A stretch of 64,000 nt of DNA from Candidatus Limnocylindrales bacterium (lineage in GTDB: Bacteria > Moduliflexota > Moduliflexia > Moduliflexales > JAUQPW01): the NCBI GenBank assembly GCA_035559535.1, contig DATMBG010000042.1:62001-126000 (forward strand), written 5' to 3'. A model generated the notes under the pieces. That model had not been told where the DNA came from. It did no database searches and saw nothing but the letters and a program-made list of their open reading frames with translations. The translations under genes were made by a program, and so were the position numbers. Positions 1 through 58,984 of this stretch are shown in pieces. The stretch's first letter is position 1; every line of letters begins with the position of its first letter.

Positions 1-192
1 ACCGGGGTTGGCATTGACAAAGCAAATCTCGAGAGAATCTTTGAGCCCTTTTTTACCACCAAAGCCAAGGGGAGTGGGCTAGGGTTACCCTTGGTTCGGC
101 AGATTCTTAAAGAGCATCGGGGAGAGATTGAGTGTATCAGTGAAAAGGGAGCCGGTACGACCTTTATCGTCTGGCTCCCTATAGCAAGATGA
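1..192 (+). CDS. Sensor histidine kinase, C-terminal fragment
   Basis: This open frame enters from the left edge and ends with TGA, giving 63 residues. It shows the end of a HATPase_c ATP-binding domain: a glycine box (TGVGID), the F box (FEPFFTTK) and the second glycine box (GSGLGL), then the usual terminal strands ending in TTFIVWLP. Such domains bind ATP and phosphorylate a histidine in the dimerization domain, which lies outside the window. No response regulator follows directly. The nearest receiver protein is at 12.2 kb on the other strand, so a partnership cannot be claimed. Confidence 0.85.
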   Translation, partial: TGVGIDKANLERIFEPFFTTKAKGSGLGLPLVRQILKEHRGEIECISEKGAGTTFIVWLPIAR

Positions 193-27804: not shown

Positions 27805-28362
27805 TTAGGGTTCCCAGATCGTTTCCGGTTGACCGGCTCGTTGGTTAACCAGGCGAGCCAGGACGAAAAGCAAATCTGAAAGTCGGTTTAGATACTTAAT
27901 GATTTCCTTATTGATGTCGTGGTTCTGTGCCAGGGTCACCACGCGACGCTCCGCCCGGCGGGAGACCGTTCTGGCAAAATGGAGGTAGGCCGCGCCGGGA
28001 GTCCCACCCGGTAAGATAAAGCGGGTCAAGGGAACCAGTTCCGCTTCGCATTGATCGATCCATTCTTCTAATCGGGTTATCTGTTCCGGTACAATACGGG
28101 GTATGGGTTTTCGAGCTTCCAGCTTTGGTTGGTTAAAGGGAGTTGCCAGATCCGCACCTACCTTAAATAGTTCCGATTGAATGTTCTCCAGGATATTTCG
28201 AATTTGGGTATCGGTTATAAAGGATACGGCCAGTCCCAAAACCGAATTAAGCTCATCTACGGTTCCGTAGGCTTCCACATAGGGGGAATCTTTCAGAACA
28301 CGTTCCCCACCGAATAAACCTGTTTCCCCTTTATCTCCGGTTCGTGTGTAGATTTTCATCAT
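27805..28362 (-). CDS. pduO: PduO-type cob(I)yrinic acid/cobalamin adenosyltransferase
   Basis: 185 residues. It transfers the adenosyl group of ATP to cob(I)alamin, making adenosylcobalamin. Family signatures: N-terminal [24 protein letters not shown], the [26 protein letters not shown] stretch (Arg pair that binds ATP) and the late [14 protein letters not shown]. Its ATG overlaps the lipA stop by 4 bp (ATGA), so the two are translationally coupled. The product is the cofactor required by the class II ribonucleotide reductase at 3.3-5.5 kb. Confidence 0.95.
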
Positions 28363-29252
28363 GGGATTTTAATGTCCAACAACTCCCGGTGTTGGTTGAC
28401 CTGCTCATCGGCATGATAGGAGCTTCTAACAAGAGGACCGGATTCCACATGCCGGAATCCCATCTCTTCCCCTCGAGCTTTTAGCATTTTGAACTCATCC
28501 GGGTGGTAGTATCGAACAACCGGGAGATGTTGTTGGGAGGGTTGGAGGTATTGACCTAAGGTTAAAATGTCACACTGCACCCCACGTAAATCTGACATCA
28601 CCGCATAAACTTCTTCGATGGTTTCTCCGAGGCCCAGCATAATTCCAGTTTTGGTTACAAACCCCTGGGTTTTGGCCCTTCTTAACACCTCCAGGCTCTG
28701 TTGATAGTTCGCCTGAGGCCGAACTTTACGATATAATCGAGGAACCGTCTCGACGTTATGAGCTAAGATATCCGGCCTGGCCGCTAAAACGGTCATCAAA
28801 GCTTCTTCAGAGCCTTTAAAATCAGGTATCAAAACCTCAAGGGTGCAGGTCGGGTTTGCCTGTCGAACCCGGCGAATGGTCTCGGCCCAGATAGAAGAAC
28901 CTCCATCCTTCAGTTCATCCCGATTAACCGAGGTTATCACCACATGCTTCAGTCCAAGTTTACGAATTGCCTCGGCGACCCGCCGGGGTTCGTCCCAGTC
29001 TACTCCCAGCGGTCGACCGGTCGGTACATCACAAAAACCGCAACTCCGGGTGCAAATATTCCCCAGAAGCATAAAGGTAGCAGTTCTCCGATTCCAACAT
29101 TCCCCAATATTGGGACAGCTGGCACTCTCACAAACCGTGTGGAGCTTGTGGTCTCGAACCAGCTTTTTAAGCTCAAAGAAATTTTCACCTTGAGGCATCC
29201 GAACCTTGAGCCAGGGTGGATGCTTCCTTGCTTTAGGTGGACTTATTTCCAT
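28359..29252 (-). CDS. lipA: Lipoyl synthase
   Basis: 297 residues. A radical SAM enzyme that inserts two sulfurs into the octanoyl chain on lipoyl domains. Both iron-sulfur clusters are visible: the auxiliary cluster cysteines in [12 protein letters not shown] and the radical SAM CxxxCxxC in CTRSCGFC, with the conserved RSSYHADE at the C terminus. It is coupled to pduO and lies on the same strand as the selenoprotein, PHP gene and pyruvate dehydrogenase genes. Its most obvious target in the window is the E2 lipoyl domain at 31.1-32.5 kb. Confidence 0.97.
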
Positions 29253-29357
29253 ACTTTCTCAACCTTTAGTAGGTCAACCGTCACCGGTTGATAATCCATA
29301 AGTAACAATCAGCGATTAACAGTTTTTGTTTATTGTTCATTGCTGACTGTTTACCGC

Positions 29358-30044
29358 TTAGGATTCGTAGTATTCCGGGTACTCGCGTTCGGCAATTTTA
29401 CCCGGTTCAATAGGGTTTATCAACAAATTCAGGGCATCTTTAATAACCTTCTTGTGAAGTTCCTTCTGTCCGGGTTTACCGACCGAGTGCCCTATTTTAA
29501 ATCCCTTGGGACTAAGGGCCCTGGAAGGCCTTCCCATATGTGTCTGCTCTTTATCCGTTGTGATTAAAACCGATGGAATGGCCATCATTTCCAAAGCCCG
29601 CTGAATCGACACAACTGCGCGATGGCATAAAGGTCACCCGCCCGTCATCAGGGTAATATCGGCCCGGCTATTCTGGATCTGCTTGACAATTTCTGGAATG
29701 GTTTTCTCACGGACCTCTCTAAAAGCCTGGGTATAGCCCATGCTGATATGAATTTCAGAAACCGCACCGATAAATTTTTCCTGGGCCAGTTCTCTCAGGC
29801 GATCTATAGGGAAAACGCAGTTAATATCCTTATCTGCATCGGAATGGTCGTAGTGTCCGTGGGTGATCCTGAGATCTCGGCTTTCTACATTTCCTGGAAT
29901 TATACGAAAACTTGTATCTCCATCTAAAATAAAAGGAGGCTGGTCTTTCAAATGCACACCGGCCGTACTGACCAGTGCCACTTTACTTTCTTCAAGCTTA
30001 CCGGTAAAGGGTGTGTAAGGAATACACAAACGGGAGATTTCCAT
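29358..30044 (-). CDS. GrdB/PrdB-family selenoprotein, UGA read as selenocysteine
   Basis: 228 codons in one frame interrupted only by TGA at 29636-29634. Around it the frame reads TLMTGG-U-PLCHRAVVSIQRALE, the UxxCH redox motif of the glycine/sarcosine/betaine/D-proline reductase selenoprotein B family. After the TGA the frame continues another 92 codons with the family's IPSVLITT and later GRPSRAL patterns. A bacterial SECIS-like hairpin follows at 29605-29623. The full length is close to PrdB (about 240). The N terminus (THGHYDHSDAD, MGYTQ) also looks family-like. Biochemical role unknown: no grdA/prdA partner lies near, so it may be a stand-alone oxidoreductase. Sec machinery is not in the window. 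Confidence 0.85.
29605..29623 (-). promoter_or_regulatory. Bacterial SECIS element
   Basis: Starting 13 nt after the first base of the UGA, the RNA AUCG-CGC-AGUU-GUG-U-CGAU folds into a stem of 4 plus 3 pairs (one G-U) with a bulged U and apical loop AGUU. Stem, bulged U and a GU in the loop 22-23 nt from the UGA match the SelB-binding bacterial SECIS design of fdhF. Confidence 0.7.
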
Positions 30045-30119
30045 TTCTTTTAAAGTGGGTAGTAAGCAACAGGTTATAAACCTCTGCCCTTTGGCGCTTA
30101 TCTTTTTAATATCCCTTGC

Positions 30120-30941
30120 TTAGCGCCCACCTGCCCTTTGCCTGAGTTTCTCAACAAAACTATAAGGGATCGCCCGCATACCCATGGGGGTACCGCCACC
30201 TCGCTCCCCGTGATAATCGGAACCTCCACTTTCCAGGAGATGGTATCTTTGGGCCAGTCTGGCATAATGTTGAGGATCTCCCGGGAAGTTTTGAGGAGGG
30301 ATCGTTTCAATCCCATCCAGTCCTTTTTTTGCCAATTCCGGAATTATTCCATCCTGGTTATAGCAGCCGGGATGGGCCAATACCGAGACCCCTCCAATGG
30401 ATTGAATCAAAGCTATTCCTTCTTCGGGACTTAGGGGATACTTTTCTGCAAAGATCGGTCCCTGATCTCCGAGATATTTTTGAAAGGCTTCTTCATAGGA
30501 GGTTACATAACCCTCCTCGACCAGGACCTCGGCGATATGCGGTCGGCCAACCACTCCAGATCCTGCTTTTGTCAGAACCGATTCGATTCGAATCGGAAGA
30601 CCCTTCCGATTGAGTTGGGCAATCATTTTTTCTACCCTTCGGATCCTTCCGATTTTGAAAAGTTCCAGATAGTCCAGGAATTTCTGATCCTTATAATCGA
30701 TAAAGTATCCGAGTATATGGATATCCTTACCTTGATAGGTAACACTCAGCTCTACCCCGGGTATTACCTCGATTCCCAGTTCCTTGGCAACAGCCATGGC
30801 CGGATCAATACCACTTACGGTATCATGGTCGGTGATGCTGATGGCCTTCAAATTAGCCAACTTGGCTCGTTTTACAACCTCCTCAGGCGTGGAAGTTCCG
30901 TCCGAATGGACGGTATGTACATGTAAATCTGCCAGTTCCAA
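30120..30941 (-). CDS. PHP-domain phosphoesterase (RNase AM/TrpH-like)
   Basis: 273 residues. The metal-binding PHP motifs are in order: DLHVHTVHSDG at residues 5-15, ITDHDT, PGVELS, GRPHIA, LAHPG and GGSDYHG. The length and motif set match the YciV/TrpH group, which includes 5'-3' RNases and 3',5'-nucleotide bisphosphate phosphatases, not the DNA polymerase PHP domains. It is on the minus strand between the PDH genes and the selenoprotein. A C-rich/G-rich hairpin separates it from E2. Confidence 0.9.
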   Translation of the reverse strand: MELADLHVHTVHSDGTSTPEEVVKRAKLANLKAISITDHDTVSGIDPAMAVAKELGIEVIPGVELSVTYQGKDIHILGYFIDYKDQKFLDYLELFKIGRIRRVEKMIAQLNRKGLPIRIESVLTKAGSGVVGRPHIAEVLVEEGYVTSYEEAFQKYLGDQGPIFAEKYPLSPEEGIALIQSIGGVSVLAHPGCYNQDGIIPELAKKGLDGIETIPPQNFPGDPQHYARLAQRYHLLESGGSDYHGERGGGTPMGMRAIPYSFVEKLRQRAGGR

Positions 30942-30943
30942 CA

Positions 30944-31017
30944 GGAAAGTATGGGAGTATGGAAGTAGGAGCGTGTGGGAGGTAGAGTCTCCCCTCCCCC
31001 TCCCCTACTTCCACACG
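30944..31017. repeat. Mirrored G-rich/C-rich hairpin
   Basis: G-rich arm 30944-30986 and C-rich arm 30987-31017, with GGAAGTAGG (30961-30969) exactly pairing with CCTACTTCC (31004-31012). Lies between PDH E2 and the PHP gene. Confidence 0.65.
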
Positions 31018-31064
31018 TTTCGTGGACCTTTACCCACTGCCTATCACCCGGTGGTTTCCGTTTT

Positions 31065-32522
31065 TTACACGGCGAGCGTCATGGGATTTTCCAGAATTTT
31101 CTTCAATTCCTGTAAAAACTTGGCGGCGGTGGCGCCATCGGTAACCCGATGATCGCAGGATAGGGTCACTTTCATACGATGGCCGACTCGAATTTGGCCT
31201 TCCACCACCACCGGTTTTTCCTGGATCGAGCCGACGGCCAAGATAGCCCCTTCCGGGGGGTTAATAATTGCAGCAAAGTTCTCCACATCGTACATACCCA
31301 GATTGGAGATGGTAAAGGTACTACCGGTATATTCTTCGGGTTTTAATTTTTTCGATCGAGCCTTTTCGGCCAGATCTTTGGCTTCTCGGGCAATTTGCCC
31401 CAGGCTTTTAACCTCGCAATTTCGGATCACCGGGGTTATTAATCCATCTTCCAGAGCGACCGCTACACCGATATGGATTCCTTTATAAACTCTGATCTTA
31501 TCGCCTGCAAAGGAAGCATTCAATTGGGGATATTTCATAAGGGCTTTGGCTACGGCTTTAATAATCAGGTCGTTAAAGCTGATTTTAAGGTCTTCTTCCA
31601 GCTCGTTGACTAATTTGCGAAATTCCATCGCCTTCCCCATATCGATTTCTGATGTGATATAAAAATGGGGGACAGGCCCTTTGCTTTCGGCCATTCGTCT
31701 GGCGATGGTTTTTCGCATCATAGTCAACTCTTTTTCTTCGAATTCCGCAGGTGCAGGGGCAACCGGTACTTCGGGGGTAACTTCTATTTTTCCAGGCACC
31801 CATCGCGGTGGACGTTCTGGCTCATAAGAAGGTATTTTTTCGGCCCTTTCCATAAACATCTCGATATCCCGTTTGATCACCCGACCCAGGGGGCCACTTC
31901 CCTTTATTTGAGAAAGATCGAGTCCTAAGTTCTTGGCCATTCTTCGAGCCATGGGGGAAGCTTTAACATGTTCTGGCTCTTCTTCCATTTCCGTCAGTTC
32001 TTCAGCACTTCCAACTTCAGGTTTTTTAGCGGCTTCCATCTCGTCCGCTCTTCCCCCCTTCATTACTTCGAGGTGGCGTTTTTTCTCCCGTTCCCCTTCT
32101 TTGATTTTTTCTGGCTCTTCAAATTCTTCGGCCTCTTTAACTTGTGTTCTTTTCTCCTGCCTGGTCTCTACCACCTCGGCAGGTTTTTCAATTTCTCCAG
32201 CACCTCTCCTCGGGGTAGGACTTTCAGCTTTTCCGGCTTCTTTCTGCCCTTCTCCTCCGGGAAGTAAGCTGGAGATATCCTCATGGGGTTCTGCAATAAT
32301 TGCAATCAACTCCCCCACCGGAGCGGATTCCCCTTCCTTTTTAAGGATCTTTTTTAAAATCCCTGAGGCGTAGGCTTCCATTTCTAGATTGGCTTTATCT
32401 GTCTCGATCTCAGCGATGACGTCCCCGCTCTGAACTTTGTCCCCTTCTTTCTTCAGCCACTTGACAATCACCCCTTCCTGCATCGTATCGCTGAGTTTAG
32501 GCATTGTAACTTTACTTGCCAT
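31065..32522 (-). CDS. pdhC: Pyruvate dehydrogenase E2, dihydrolipoamide acetyltransferase
   Basis: 485 residues. One lipoyl domain at the N terminus (lysine in IETDKANLE, about residue 43), a long acidic Glu/Lys linker (about 90-190), a peripheral-subunit-binding domain (SPMARRMAKNLGLDLSQIKG, about 192-230) and the acyltransferase core with catalytic SCDHRVTDGA near the C terminus. It accepts acetyl from E1 and passes it to CoA. The genes E1alpha, E1beta and E2 form the minus-strand run 34615 to 31065. No E3 lipoamide dehydrogenase is present here. The linker has much more charge and less Ala/Pro than usual. Confidence 0.95.
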   Translation of the reverse strand: MASKVTMPKLSDTMQEGVIVKWLKKEGDKVQSGDVIAEIETDKANLEMEAYASGILKKILKKEGESAPVGELIAIIAEPHEDISSLLPGGEGQKEAGKAESPTPRRGAGEIEKPAEVVETRQEKRTQVKEAEEFEEPEKIKEGEREKKRHLEVMKGGRADEMEAAKKPEVGSAEELTEMEEEPEHVKASPMARRMAKNLGLDLSQIKGSGPLGRVIKRDIEMFMERAEKIPSYEPERPPRWVPGKIEVTPEVPVAPAPAEFEEKELTMMRKTIARRMAESKGPVPHFYITSEIDMGKAMEFRKLVNELEEDLKISFNDLIIKAVAKALMKYPQLNASFAGDKIRVYKGIHIGVAVALEDGLITPVIRNCEVKSLGQIAREAKDLAEKARSKKLKPEEYTGSTFTISNLGMYDVENFAAIINPPEGAILAVGSIQEKPVVVEGQIRVGHRMKVTLSCDHRVTDGATAAKFLQELKKILENPMTLAV

Positions 32523-32605
32523 GTTTCTAGAGACCGGAGGCCGGAGGCTGGGGGTTTGTAAAGACTCCGATCCCCGACCTCAAGCCCCAAGTCTCAAGAT
32601 ATCTT

Positions 32606-33586
32606 TTAGTCAAAGTATAAGACCTTTTTGACGGCTTCTATAACCCTCGCTTTATTGGGTATAGTGGCCATTTCTAAATTCTTCGCATAGGGCATGGGAA
32701 CGTTTCTCGCTGCTACCCGCTCGATGGGAGCATCAATATAGTCAAAAGCCTTACGGTAGATAATCTCCGCAATCTGAGCCCCAAATCCTCCAAATTCCCA
32801 ACCTTCTTCAACAATCACCGCCCGGTTGGTTTTACGAACCGAGTTAAGAATTGTGGTTTCATCCAAGGGCCTCAAAGTCCGGGGATCTACAATTTCTACC
32901 TCAATACCCTCTTTAGCCAATTCTTCAGCCGCCTCCATAGCCAGGAGGACCATTTTGGAATAAGCTATAATGGTTACATCGCTCCCTTTTCTTTTGATAT
33001 CGGCTTTTCCAAGGGGAATGGTGTATTCTCCTTCAGGAACTTCCCCTTTCGTACCGTATAACAACTCCCCTTCGATAAAAATAACGGGATTATCATCCCG
33101 GATGGCACTTTTAAGTAAGCCTTTGGCGTCCTTAGGGACACCCGGCATAACGACTTTGAGTCCCGGGACATAACAAAACCAGGTTTCCAGGGAGTGGGAA
33201 TGCTGGGCTGCCAGTGAATGGGCAGCTCCTCCAGGGCCTCGGATCACCATGGGGATCTTAAACTGTCCTCCCGACATGTATCGAATCTTAGCCGCACTGT
33301 TTACAATCTGATCCATGGCCACGATAGAGAAATTAAAGGTCATCATTTCGATGACTGGTCTCAATCCTACCATAGCTGCACCGACTCCTACCCCGGTAAA
33401 GGCCTCTTCGGTGATAGGGGTGTCAATGACCCTTTTTTCTCCAAATTCTTCTAGTAAACCCTGGCTGACTTTATAGGCTCCTTGATAGAGACCTACCTCC
33501 TCTCCCATGAGAAAAACCCTTTCATCTCGACGCATTTCCTCTCGAAGAGCCTGGTTGAGTGCTTCTCGATAAGTTATAACCGGCAT
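32606..33586 (-). CDS. pdhB: Pyruvate dehydrogenase E1 beta
   Basis: 326 residues from the ATG at 33586, which begins MPVITYREALNQALREEM, the family's usual start; a GTG 17 codons upstream lies in a palindrome and is less likely. Thiamine-diphosphate binding residues are in GEEVGLYQGAY (Glu) and ITEEAFTGVGVGAA. IEMMTFNFS, the PGGAAHSLAAQHS loop and the C-terminal transketolase domain (EEGWEFGGFGAQIAE) are all present. It pairs with E1 alpha. The spacer between the two genes holds an inverted repeat. Confidence 0.96.
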   Translation of the reverse strand: MPVITYREALNQALREEMRRDERVFLMGEEVGLYQGAYKVSQGLLEEFGEKRVIDTPITEEAFTGVGVGAAMVGLRPVIEMMTFNFSIVAMDQIVNSAAKIRYMSGGQFKIPMVIRGPGGAAHSLAAQHSHSLETWFCYVPGLKVVMPGVPKDAKGLLKSAIRDDNPVIFIEGELLYGTKGEVPEGEYTIPLGKADIKRKGSDVTIIAYSKMVLLAMEAAEELAKEGIEVEIVDPRTLRPLDETTILNSVRKTNRAVIVEEGWEFGGFGAQIAEIIYRKAFDYIDAPIERVAARNVPMPYAKNLEMATIPNKARVIEAVKKVLYFD

Positions 33587-33600
33587 GTGGAAATACTCAG

Positions 33601-33664
33601 GCGTAAGGCGAAAGGTCAAGGAAACTTTTCCTTTCACCCTTCGCCTTGTCCCTTTCGCCTTTTA
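33601..33664. repeat. Inverted repeat between pdhA and pdhB
   Basis: AAGGCGAAAGG (33605-33615) and CCTTTCGCCTT (33651-33661) are exact reverse complements, with a smaller GGAAACTTTTCC dyad inside. A hairpin here could tune the E1alpha/E1beta ratio. Confidence 0.55.
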
Positions 33665-34615
33665 GGCGTAAACATCCTCATACAACCATTCTTCAGGTGG
33701 TTCCGGACTCTTTTCCGCAAACTCTACAGCTTCCTCCACGATGGCTTTAATCTCTTTTTCCATTTCTTCAAACTTCTCTTCGGAAAGAATCCCTTCCGCG
33801 ATGAGTTTCTGCTTAAAGGTGACAATAGGATCTCGTTTCCTTTGTTCGTTAACTTCCTCTTTTGTTCGATATTGAGCAGGATCCGACATGGAATGTCCCC
33901 GGAAGCGGTAGGTTCTAACTTCCAGAAAAGTAGGTATTTTTTCATGTCGGGCCCGTTCTACGGCTTTACCAACCTTCTCCCAAACCTCTAATACGTTCAT
34001 TCCATCCACAAGCTCGCCGGGAATATCGTAGGCTTTGGCCTTCAAGTACATCTCCGGACCGGCCATGGCACGGGTTACTGCAGTTCCCATTCCATAGAAG
34101 TTATTTTCACAGATGTAAATGACGGGAAGCTTCCACAAAGACGCTAAATTCAGAGATTCATGGAAAACTCCTGTATTTACAGCTCCATCTCCAAAAAAGC
34201 ACAACACAACCTGATCCTTCCCCTCGTAGTTGATAGCAAAGCCAACGCCTGTAGCCAGAGGAATATGTCCTCCTACGATGGCATGTCCCCCCAGGAAGTT
34301 TCTTTCCGCATCAAAAAGATGCATGGATCCACCCTTTCCACGTGAAATTCCCGTGGCCTTTCCAAAGAGCTCGGCCATGATCTTTCGAGGTTCGGTTCCT
34401 ATCGCCAAAGCATGTCCATGCTCCCGGTAAGAAGCTATCACATAATCATCCTTTCGAATGGCCGCAATAGCACCCACTGCTACCGCTTCTTGACCAATAT
34501 AGAGATGGCAAAATCCACCAATTTTACCCATCATATACATCTCTGCGGCTTTTTCTTCAAACCGCCGGATGAGTAACATCTGACGATACATTTCAATTAA
34601 TTTTTCACTGTCCAT
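33662..34615 (-). CDS. pdhA: Pyruvate dehydrogenase E1 alpha
   Basis: 317 residues. It decarboxylates the 2-oxo acid with thiamine diphosphate: the TPP motif GDGAVNTGVFHESLN ends in the expected ENN (VIYICENN). The phosphorylation-loop equivalent YRFRGHSMSDPAQYR is present, as is HLYIGQEAVAVG near the N terminus. It is first in the PDH run. The length fits the pyruvate/acetoin dehydrogenase alpha family; acetoin dehydrogenase is the main alternative, but E2 and lipA next door favour pyruvate. Confidence 0.95.
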   Translation of the reverse strand: MDSEKLIEMYRQMLLIRRFEEKAAEMYMMGKIGGFCHLYIGQEAVAVGAIAAIRKDDYVIASYREHGHALAIGTEPRKIMAELFGKATGISRGKGGSMHLFDAERNFLGGHAIVGGHIPLATGVGFAINYEGKDQVVLCFFGDGAVNTGVFHESLNLASLWKLPVIYICENNFYGMGTAVTRAMAGPEMYLKAKAYDIPGELVDGMNVLEVWEKVGKAVERARHEKIPTFLEVRTYRFRGHSMSDPAQYRTKEEVNEQRKRDPIVTFKQKLIAEGILSEEKFEEMEKEIKAIVEEAVEFAEKSPEPPEEWLYEDVYA

Positions 34616-51437: not shown

Positions 51438-52940
51438 TCACCTGAGTTCTCTTTTGAGAATTTTACCTGTAGGCGTTTTGGGTAGAGATTTTCTGAACTC
51501 GATATAACGAGGTATCTTATATCTGGCCAGTTTTTCCATACAATATCGTCGGATTTCTCGTTCAGTCAGGGCAGCACCTTCTTTAAGGACGATAAAGGCT
51601 TTGGGTACCTCTCCGCGCTGTTCATCCTTTACCCCGATCACGGCACATTCTACTATCTGGGGATGGGAGAGCAGGACCTCTTCGATCTCCCTGGGGTATA
51701 CGTTGATCCCTCGTACCAACAGCATATCCTTCTTTCGATCTAGAATGTAGAGATACCCATCTTCATCAAGCTTTCCTATATCTCCCGTTAATAACCAGCC
51801 ATCTCGAAGGACACTTTGAGTTGCTTCAGGTAAGCGGTAATATCCAAGCATGACATTGGGGCCTTTAACGGCGATTTCTCCTTCCTGTCCCACCGGAAGA
51901 TCATTTCCTTCTGCATCGACTATCTTGACCTGAACCTGGGGTATAGGCAGGCCTACCGAACCTACCTTTCGGACCCCTTCTAACGGGTTAACCGAAACAA
52001 CCGGAGAGGCCTCCGATAAACCATAGCCTTCGAGCAACGGAGCTCCGAATTTCTTCTCTATCTTTTCAATGGTTGCCGCCGAGAGTGGAGCCGAACCCGA
52101 GATAAAAGCCCGAATGGCATGAAGATATTTAACAATCCAGGGTACTTTTCTCTCGGCCAGAATATTGAAAACCGCCGGAACCCCTACAAAAATGGTCACA
52201 CGGTCCCATAAGATGCTCTTTTTTATTTCCTCCAAGGACTTTACCGATTCCAACAGGATGATTCTGGCTCCCCCATATATGGGGGCTAAAACACAAACCG
52301 TAAAGGTAAAGGCATGAAAAAGTGGTAAAAACAACAGGAACCTATCCCTATGGGAAAATTTAAATGCCCGGATGCAACTCTCGATATTTGAATACAGATT
52401 CTTATGGGACAACATAACTCCCTTGGGATGACCGGTTGTACCAGAGGTATAAATTAAAACGGCCAGATTCTCAGGATTTAGCTTTTTTCCCGGAGATACA
52501 GGGAGTTCAGCTTCCATTAACCTGTTCAACGAAAGAAATTCTTTCGAGTCGTCATCCATCAAGATTGTGTATTTTAATGACAACACCTGAGGTAGTATGG
52601 GTTGAAGGGTTTCTAAAAATTTTTTAGAAGTAATTATCGCCTTGAGCTGGCAATCATTCATAATATAGGCCAGCTCTACGCCGGTCAGAAAAGTGTTAAG
52701 AGGAACGACAACTCCTCCGGTTTTAAGAATGGCGAAATAGCTGATAATATATTCCGGCTTATTCTCAAGAAGTATACCAACCTTGTCCCCTTCCTGTACA
52801 TCCCGTTTAAGAAGAGCCTGGCTTAATCGATTGACGGCTTCATCCAGTTGCTTAAAGGTTATTTTTTGCTTGCCGAATTTAATCGCTATGTGATGCGGGA
52901 ATCTTTCGGCAGTTTCTTCCAACATCTGACCTAAGATCAT
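51438..52940 (-). CDS. Acyl-CoA ligase (AMP-binding), paralog
   Basis: 500 residues. Same signatures as the neighbour: LIYTSGTTGHPKGVM, YGLSEASPVVSVNP, LLTGDIGKLDEDGYL and KTPTGKILKRELR at the C terminus. By eye it is roughly half identical to the 49677-51272 protein, so the pair came from an old tandem duplication. Shorter by about 30 residues. ATG preceded by an AGGAG 15 bp upstream. Confidence 0.93.
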   Translation of the reverse strand: MILGQMLEETAERFPHHIAIKFGKQKITFKQLDEAVNRLSQALLKRDVQEGDKVGILLENKPEYIISYFAILKTGGVVVPLNTFLTGVELAYIMNDCQLKAIITSKKFLETLQPILPQVLSLKYTILMDDDSKEFLSLNRLMEAELPVSPGKKLNPENLAVLIYTSGTTGHPKGVMLSHKNLYSNIESCIRAFKFSHRDRFLLFLPLFHAFTFTVCVLAPIYGGARIILLESVKSLEEIKKSILWDRVTIFVGVPAVFNILAERKVPWIVKYLHAIRAFISGSAPLSAATIEKIEKKFGAPLLEGYGLSEASPVVSVNPLEGVRKVGSVGLPIPQVQVKIVDAEGNDLPVGQEGEIAVKGPNVMLGYYRLPEATQSVLRDGWLLTGDIGKLDEDGYLYILDRKKDMLLVRGINVYPREIEEVLLSHPQIVECAVIGVKDEQRGEVPKAFIVLKEGAALTEREIRRYCMEKLARYKIPRYIEFRKSLPKTPTGKILKRELR

Positions 52941-57001: not shown

Positions 57002-57817
57002 ATGTCCGCTTTATCTGTAACCCTCATCACCTATAACGAGGAAAATAAGATCGCCGACGCCCTGGAAAGTGTTAAGTGGGCAGATGAAATCGTTGTTGTC
57101 GATTCTTTCAGTACCGATCGTACCCTGGAGATTTGCAAACGTTATACCGATAAAGTCTATCAGATTCCCTGGCAGGGCTATGTAGTTCAAAAAAACCTGG
57201 CCCTGGAAAAGGCATCCCATGAATGGATTTTAAACCTGGATGCCGATGAGCGGGTCTCTCCGGAACTGGCAGAGGAAATAAAGAGGGCTTTACAAACCGA
57301 TGAGTTTGACGGTTATTATATCCCGAGGCGGGTTTTTTACCTGGGAACCTGGATCCGATATGCCGGCTGGTACCCGGACTATAAACTGCGATTGTTTAAG
57401 AAGAGCCTGGCCAGGTGGGAAGGACCGGGCATCCATGAAAAGGTGGTATTAAAGGGAAGGGTCGGCTACTTGAAGGGAGACCTTTACCACTTTTCCTACG
57501 ATAATTTAGCTCATCACGTCAACAAGATTAACCAGTTTACCACCATTGCCGCTGAACAGATCCGAAAACCCGTTCGAGGTCATACCATTTTTTTGAGGGC
57601 GCTTTTTGCTTTTTTCAAGAAATATTTCCTTAAAAGAGCTTTCTTAGAGGGAACCCGGGGCCTTATTATAAGTGGAATGTCCGCTTTTCAGGTATTTATT
57701 AAATATGCCAAGATGTGGGAACTCTCCCAAAATCCCAAAGGGCATGGGGACACGAAACCATGGGAACTCGGGAAAATTGATAAGGCGCGGGAGCAGGAGG
57801 ACTTGGAAAGGCAATGA
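57002..57817 (+). CDS. Glycosyltransferase family 2 (WaaE/KdtX-like)
   Basis: 271 residues. It starts with SVTLITYNEENKIADALESV, has the DxD motif (LNLDADERVS) and VVVDSFSTDRT. The YLGTWIRYAGWYPDYKLRLFKK segment and the later basic, aromatic tail match the LPS core glucosyltransferase group. A membrane-associated patch (FLRALFAFFKKYFLKRAF) lies near residues 200-220. Third in the run; core oligosaccharide synthesis is the best guess. Confidence 0.9.
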   Translation: MSALSVTLITYNEENKIADALESVKWADEIVVVDSFSTDRTLEICKRYTDKVYQIPWQGYVVQKNLALEKASHEWILNLDADERVSPELAEEIKRALQTDEFDGYYIPRRVFYLGTWIRYAGWYPDYKLRLFKKSLARWEGPGIHEKVVLKGRVGYLKGDLYHFSYDNLAHHVNKINQFTTIAAEQIRKPVRGHTIFLRALFAFFKKYFLKRAFLEGTRGLIISGMSAFQVFIKYAKMWELSQNPKGHGDTKPWELGKIDKAREQEDLERQ

Positions 57818-57853
57818 ATTATCTTCCACCTCCCTGTCTTTAGTCCTAAGAAA

Positions 57854-58984
57854 ATGAACCTTCTTCAGATCATCAATGTCCGCTGGTGGAACGCAGAAGC
57901 TTCCTATGCCTTGAATTTATCCAAAGGTCTTCGGGACCGGGGACATAAAGTAACCATCCTGGGCCTTCCCCATAGTCCGGTTATACGCCGGGCGGAGGAA
58001 GAAAATTTCCCGATCCTTACCTCCTTTGACCTGTGGGGTTTTAATCCCTATACGCTCTACAAGGGATTCCGCGGATTTTTGCGCTTCCTGAATCAGGAAA
58101 GATTCGATGTGATCAATGCCCACCGCTCGGAAGGATACTGCTTCGTTGCCCTGGCTGCTAAACTGGCTCAAAATAAACCGGCCCTGGTACGAACCCGGGG
58201 GGATATGCGTCCGGTCCGAAATAACCCCTTAAACCGATTCTTGTATGGAAAATGGACCGATAAGGTGATTACCTCTGGGGAAGTCATTCGAAGGAATCTA
58301 TGCCGGGATCTCTTTCTTTCTGCTCATCAGGTTCAAACCATCTACGGGAGTGTAGATCTCCAAAGATTTCATCCTTTTTTAGATGGAAGGGTGAAAAGAA
58401 AAGAACTTACCCTTGAGGAAAACGTCAAACTTATCGGCATCATCGGAAGAGTAGGATACATCAAGGGGCATCAATATCTTATCGCAGCGGCTTCCAAGAT
58501 TATTCAGATAGATCCTTCGGTCCGATTTTTATTGGCGATTAAGGAAGAAGATGAAGACATTGTGCGACTCAAAGACCTCATCGGGCAACTCCATCTTTCC
58601 CCTTATTTTATCCTGACAGGGTTTCATCCGGATATTGAGAAGGTCATGGCGGCATTGGATATAGGTATTGTAACTTCTATTGGATCAGAGGCCAATTGTC
58701 GGGTAGTTTTAGAGTTGATGGCATCGGGAAAGCCAATCGTAGCTACCCAGGTTGGAATTATTCCAGAGGTTATCGATAACGGCGTGAATGGAGTGCTGGT
58801 ACCTCCTAAAAATTCAGAAGCCCTGGCCGAGGCCATCGGTTTTCTGTTAAAAAATCCGGAAAAAGCCCGCAGTTTAGCCCAAGAAGCCCGTAAAACCGCC
58901 GAACGTAGATTTAATATCCATCGCCTGGTAGAGGAAACCGAGGCGGTTTATCGGGAGGCTTTAAAGGTCAGGCTGGTAAGATAA
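57854..58984 (+). CDS. Glycosyltransferase family 4
   Basis: 376 residues, GT-B fold. It starts with MNLLQIINVRWWNAEASYALNLSKGL, has INAHRSEGYCF and a donor half with IGIIGRVGYIKGHQ and GSEANCRVVLELMASGKPIVAT (an S/E-x7-E variant). Differs from the GT4 at 55745 in acceptor side. Its start follows the GT2 gene by 36 bp. Unknown sugar and acceptor. Confidence 0.92.
   Translation: MNLLQIINVRWWNAEASYALNLSKGLRDRGHKVTILGLPHSPVIRRAEEENFPILTSFDLWGFNPYTLYKGFRGFLRFLNQERFDVINAHRSEGYCFVALAAKLAQNKPALVRTRGDMRPVRNNPLNRFLYGKWTDKVITSGEVIRRNLCRDLFLSAHQVQTIYGSVDLQRFHPFLDGRVKRKELTLEENVKLIGIIGRVGYIKGHQYLIAAASKIIQIDPSVRFLLAIKEEDEDIVRLKDLIGQLHLSPYFILTGFHPDIEKVMAALDIGIVTSIGSEANCRVVLELMASGKPIVATQVGIIPEVIDNGVNGVLVPPKNSEALAEAIGFLLKNPEKARSLAQEARKTAERRFNIHRLVEETEAVYREALKVRLVR

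Follow-up and report, generated by a model that had tools for sequence, protein, structure and literature searches.

A PrdB/GrdB-like selenoprotein gene whose close relatives mostly adjoin a selenocysteine-containing peroxiredoxin gene

Two short open reading frames, one following the other on the minus strand and parted by a single TGA, raise the question of whether the window (the whole stretch of 64,000 nts analysed here, from the genome G000) encodes at this place one selenoprotein or two ordinary genes, and what the product might do. The minus-strand frame running from 30044 to 29358 has the TGA at 29636-29634 as its sole interruption, within the motif MTGG-U-PLCHR, and translation with table 11 cuts its 228 codons into ORFs of 136 aa and 84 aa. 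This bears out the first-pass annotation, which had joined the two apparent genes into one 228-codon frame broken only by TGA and had expected gene callers to split it. The features of the locus are the following:

29358..30044, minus strand: predicted PrdB/GrdB-like selenoprotein gene of 228 codons and a stop, interrupted by a single UGA in frame
29634..29636, minus strand: predicted selenocysteine (Sec) codon 137, the in-frame TGA, present as TGA in 23/27 broad homologues and 23/25 members of the protein's own clade
29625..29636, minus strand: UxxC redox motif U137-P-L-C140, invariant at both positions (Sec/Cys) throughout the clade (25/25)
30024..30026, minus strand: codon of Cys7, invariant in the clade (25/25)
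29817..29819, minus strand: codon of Cys76, invariant in the clade (25/25)
29605..29623, minus strand: SECIS-like hairpin of 7 pairs with a bulged U and an AGUU loop, at the position of a covarying hairpin of the wider family

When the whole window was scanned for TGA codons lying between coding-like frames, the one at 29636-29634 was the only real candidate. A TGA at 51438 was rejected as the end of an ordinary gene and another at 57815 as the boundary of two adjoining glycosyltransferase genes sharing one frame; with TGA alone between them, these two genes (57002-58984, plus strand) are a trap for readthrough scans.

The orthologue in G001, a genome of the same genus, is 97% identical at the protein level and differs in 33 codons, 26 of them synonymously. 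The synonymous changes fall on either side of the UGA and, given their proportion, both halves of the gene are coding and under purifying selection. A pseudogene, a sequencing error or two separate small genes would agree with the way table 11 splits the frame, but the UGA is shared with this independent genome and with dozens of homologues across phyla, and such readings, incompatible also with selection on both halves, are rejected on this evidence as having practically no probability.

The first-pass annotation had tied its selenoprotein reading to two observations, a selenocysteine machinery in the genome and Cys or Sec at this position in relatives, and both were made. G000 encodes a tRNA-Sec (selC) with the anticodon UCA, which scores 74.5 bits and exceeds the Rfam cut-off, together with SelA (622 bits), SelB (408.6 bits) and SelD (388.6 bits), all above their curated cut-offs. 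A homologue search of 192 genomes returned 27 homologues, with an in-frame TGA in 23; at the aligned Sec column the remaining four carry Cys (2), Gly (1) and Ser (1). Within the protein's own clade, the two members that do not have Sec have Cys. Hence the UGA is kept across phyla, and Cys stands at the same column in relatives.

A further element is the hairpin downstream of the UGA (AUCG CGC-AGUU-GUG U CGAU), which spans positions +11 to +29 from it, with pairs +11/29, 12/28, 13/27, 14/26, 15/24, 16/23 and 17/22, U25 bulged and the AGUU loop at +18..21. The 7-bp stem, the bulged U and the loop are thus as described earlier, while the stem starts 10 nts after the UGA and not 13. Taken alone, this hairpin is weak evidence: the 48-nt segment folds no better than shuffled sequences (z -0.23), and a loosely similar hairpin is found at about 6% of the TGAs in the window. 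Strong evidence comes from its homology with a hairpin that covaries across the wider family. In 19 Sec members of that family, the homologous hairpin has standard pairs at 139/152 positions, most pairs occurring in several types and with many compensatory changes, whereas control alignments with one arm slid by 1-2 nts retain 30-70/152. The exact bulged architecture, with changed pairs, recurs in two members of the window clade (L055, L062), and in most of the clade a stem of 7 pairs carries the loop GGUC. Because SelA, SelB, SelC and SelD are all present, the UGA is conserved across phyla alongside Cys relatives and the hairpin covaries, the gene almost certainly encodes a selenoprotein in which UGA codon 137 is predicted to be read as selenocysteine; insertion in vivo is what we infer from these sequences.

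Membership of the GrdB/PrdB family, as claimed in the first-pass annotation, is supported by a PF07355 match of 34.2 bits against a gathering cut-off of 22, covering the C-terminal part of the family model. Such proteins have been reported before. Sequences annotated as 'proline reductase PrdB' with a UxxC motif numbered 42 in the Sargasso Sea (PMC1088965) and 235 in the GOS data, where they were among the more abundant selenoproteins of ocean metagenomes (PMC2398784), and the selenoproteins listed for A. dehalogenans in 2006 included one 'proline reductase' and three peroxiredoxins (PMC1794560). Selenoproteins of the PrdB/GrdB-like family are therefore known and abundant already, and the window protein, which shares with these marine and Anaeromyxobacter selenoproteins both the family and the in-frame UGA at UxxC, is as such a further member. 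In the literature searched, no assigned function was found for PrdB-like UxxC proteins beyond amino-acid-fermenting anaerobes.

Could the window protein be a true PrdB- or GrdB-type subunit of an amino-acid reductase, with its pyruvoyl subunit encoded elsewhere? Its homology to these enzymes is clear, since it exceeds the PF07355 cut-off and scores 180.8 bits with the PrdB model TIGR04483; it resembles the D-proline reductase PrdB of Clostridium in length, in an alignment over residues 10-222 and in the UxxC motif. However, the equivalog cut-off of TIGR04483 is 300, that of the GrdB model TIGR01917 is 602 (the protein scores 41.2 bits), and the gene neighbourhood differs from that of Clostridium PrdB. 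Compared with GrdB (PF07355, TIGR01917/01918), the protein is about half as long and has no GrdA-type partner nearby. The UxxCxxC motif described for GrdB (PMC13188914) is absent as well, the window protein reading UPLCHRA, where A143 occupies the position of the second Cys. The pyruvoyl subunit (PF09338, Gly_reductase) had no match in 16 genomes of the clade, although no control genome scored positive either, which leaves this absence tentative. An amino-acid reductase is a highly improbable reading for this protein.

The structure predicted with AF2 (mean pLDDT 95) places U137 just ahead of a helix (138-153) and after a strand (130-134). When the fold was compared against the PDB, even the best hit fell short of significance (E 2.7e-3, TM 0.35), so that the fold lends no structural argument for a reductase, and a PDB sequence search with the PrdB-like protein returned nothing.

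The first-pass annotation had left the function open, and this can be narrowed because the clade of the window protein is tied to a Sec-containing peroxiredoxin (Prx). Of 145 genomes of one Myxococcota-like order, 23 have a close relative (43-52% identity, E < 1e-58); together with the two genomes of the window's genus, these form a clade on a long branch of the tree with support 100/99. In all 23 loci of that order, which belong to five families, the directly upstream gene on the same strand encodes a peroxiredoxin. Neighbouring genes in these GC-rich contigs were called by codon usage, and the Prx gene came out in two halves: it has an in-frame TGA of its own in 21/23 loci (FTPV-U-TVQMPSYEED and similar) and Cys in the other two. 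Standard gene callers truncate both the PrdB-like gene and its Prx neighbour.

The two genes also occur together. Across the 145 genomes, 23 have both, 1 has the peroxiredoxin only, none has the PrdB-like gene only and 121 have neither; at E < 1e-40, the clade peroxiredoxin has matches in those 23 genomes and in a further one, G329, in which it is not followed by a PrdB-like gene. The Fisher value of 8e-26 overstates the independence of these genomes, which are related, even though the set spans five families. A peroxiredoxin match at E < 1e-60 was found among 385 diverse genomes only in G000, G001 and G178, and these same three genomes are those in which the PrdB-like clade was found among the 192 searched. 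A scan of the named genome collection with a three-member alignment found one distant relative only, and a scan of virus contigs for PrdB-like relatives found none.

In one genus, both proteins of the pair have changed from Sec to Cys. In G221 and G222, Cys stands in both proteins although a strong tRNA-Sec is retained, while G220, of the same genus, has Sec in both. The pair thus switched together without loss of the tRNA-Sec, in a single event.

In the genome G012, the gene of a distant PrdB-like relative of the Cys type is followed on the same strand by genes for a Rieske-type protein and a Prx (L118:4162-5933), a weaker association but an independent one. As a separate observation, in two loci of Anaeromyxobacter-like genomes (L090, L091) a further peroxiredoxin gene, of the Cys type, lies some 1.0-1.5 kb ahead of the PrdB-like gene in the same orientation.

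It is this genomic context, the link of the clade to a Sec-peroxiredoxin, that is new here. The earlier surveys list the PrdB-like families, and no statement on an operon with a Sec-peroxiredoxin was found in them (PMC1088965, PMC2398784, PMC1794560). Nor was such an operon found elsewhere in the literature searched, though an earlier account in Haft and Tolstoy 2025 (mSystems) is possible, and the pair is absent from the operon section of a 2026 review (PMC13188914). Known arrangements that resemble it are neighbouring genes for Prx and SelW-like selenoproteins and the SAO and Tso operons, in which several selenoprotein genes also adjoin one another and one case includes a Prx (PMC2398784; PMC13188914). 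However, the partner families differ, and no PrdB-like protein stands among the Tso entries of the review table (PMC13188914).

What the peroxiredoxin would require from a partner can be read from its Cys residues. The clade Prx proteins match AhpC-TSA with 124-131 bits, and the solved structures nearest to them are those of M. tuberculosis AhpE. About half of the sequences have no Cys beyond the active-site Sec/Cys, and no other Cys position is conserved. AhpE is a peroxiredoxin of the one-cysteine type and relies on outside reductants. The clade Prx has in common with AhpE (Rv2238c) and with PrxU of Eubacterium acidaminophilum the active site PxxxTxxU/C, but differs in containing Sec, in lying far below the PrxU equivalog cut-off (NF040737, 67-79 vs 270 bits) and in being encoded with a PrdB-like protein. 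Since it has no conserved resolving Cys, this AhpE-like Prx probably needs an outside reductant too. On the side of the PrdB-like clade, four positions, C7, C76, U/C137 and C140, are invariant in 25/25 members.

We consider that the PrdB-like UxxC protein may well be the reductant or redox partner of the AhpE-like Sec-peroxiredoxin, with a probability of about 0.5, the reductase step itself being deduced from gene context and conserved residues. More tentatively, and at a little short of even odds, the two would form a dedicated couple of selenoproteins in which a 1-Sec AhpE-like Prx has the PrdB/GrdB-like UxxC protein as its own reductant. In such a cycle, UGA 137 would be decoded as Sec with the help of the downstream hairpin and SelA, SelB, SelC and SelD. 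The Sec of the Prx (Cys in a few) would reduce peroxide and become a selenenic acid which, for want of a conserved resolving Cys, would be resolved by the U137 selenol of the PrdB-like protein. Cys140 would then attack the mixed bond, freeing the reduced Prx and leaving a U137-C140 selenenylsulfide, to be re-reduced by a cellular dithiol donor, by the invariant Cys7/Cys76 or by both. This scheme is built on the lack of a conserved resolving Cys in the Prx, the invariance of C7, C76, U/C137 and C140, the adjacency of the genes and the run in G012; direct electron transfer, the role of C7/C76 and the upstream donor are its presumptive parts.

Several observations speak against a redox partnership. 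G329 has the Prx and no PrdB-like protein, and G173 and G175 have more distant Sec-peroxiredoxins, at 54-58% identity, with no PrdB-like gene next to them. In most of the remaining PrdB-like branches no peroxiredoxin lies within 1.5 kb, and the change from Sec to Cys happened once, in one genus. In addition, the two genes are about 61 kb apart in the window's genome and share no operon there.

These points leave room for an explanation in which the two selenoproteins share a stress regulon or detoxification pathway and never touch. The PrdB-like protein would cleave a small molecule reductively, such as a carbon-heteroatom or peroxide-derived adduct, while the Prx, fed by thioredoxin or glutaredoxin, removed peroxide alongside. 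The characterised homologues GrdB and PrdB do act on small molecules (PMC13188914), and adjacency is evidence of a shared pathway, not of direct electron transfer. Nevertheless, the joint change from Sec to Cys and the near-perfect co-occurrence fit direct partners better, and a Prx with no conserved resolving Cys is less easily accommodated, and we regard the absence of contact as rather unlikely.

The window's own lineage differs from the order in its gene arrangement. As the first-pass annotation had placed it, the gene lies between lipA and a PHP gene, and it is this PHP gene, not the Prx gene, that is directly upstream. The neighbours are:

30120..30941, minus strand: PHP-domain phosphoesterase-like gene, upstream, functional link putative
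28359..29252, minus strand: lipA (lipoyl synthase), downstream, functional link putative
31065..32522, minus strand: E2 subunit of a 2-oxoacid dehydrogenase, with lipoyl domain, upstream of the PHP gene

Together they belong to a minus-strand run (28359-34615) in the order E1alpha, E1beta, lipoyl E2, PHP, PrdB-like and lipA, which is found in both genomes of the genus; in the window, a cobalamin adenosyltransferase gene comes after lipA in the same-strand run. The Sec-Prx orthologue of G000 lies on the same contig outside the window (C42:30202-30681, 64% identity, in-frame TGA), and in G001 the Prx and PrdB-like genes are likewise on one contig, about 48 kb apart.

A route is known in M. tuberculosis by which electrons pass through AhpD from a dihydrolipoyl E2 to a peroxiredoxin. 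A link from lipoyl electrons to the selenoprotein is possible in the window's genus, where the E2 and lipA genes flank the PHP and PrdB-like pair on one strand. As a special form of the redox-partner explanation, the protein of this lineage would take electrons from the dihydrolipoyl E2 of the pyruvate dehydrogenase complex and pass them on to the peroxiredoxin. This setting is confined to one genus, however; in the other order the PrdB-like gene stands with the peroxiredoxin gene, and neighbours of this kind do not recur, which makes the lipoyl route improbable.

The link to the Prx, on which the redox-partner reading is founded, gives the PrdB-like protein a concrete and testable job. If that reading is true, 'proline reductase' is the wrong name for the window branch, one branch of an abundant selenoprotein family gains a function, and a fold for which the PDB search gave no significant relative would act as a new kind of peroxiredoxin reductase. 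The joint switch from Sec to Cys would then serve as a natural experiment on the reasons for which Sec is retained in pairs.

Other candidate selenoprotein genes were observed in G000. A second PrdB-like gene with an in-frame TGA (C10:4284-4934; L018; L020:4179-5006) follows uvrB and a cyclase-family gene, and this paralogue is conserved in G001 (L047). The selD gene (C29:76668-77594; L022) has an in-frame TGA of its own, suggesting that SelD is probably a selenoprotein itself. Further probable selenoproteins are encoded at C22:224800-225273, C10:79463-79939, C44:137370-137750 and C32:13436-13750 (L100, L101, L102, L105), a set made up of two exported-looking Sec-peroxiredoxins, a Prx-like protein with TPGU and a TlpA/ResA-like protein with WUGIC. 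The predicted selenoproteome of this organism is thus sizeable.
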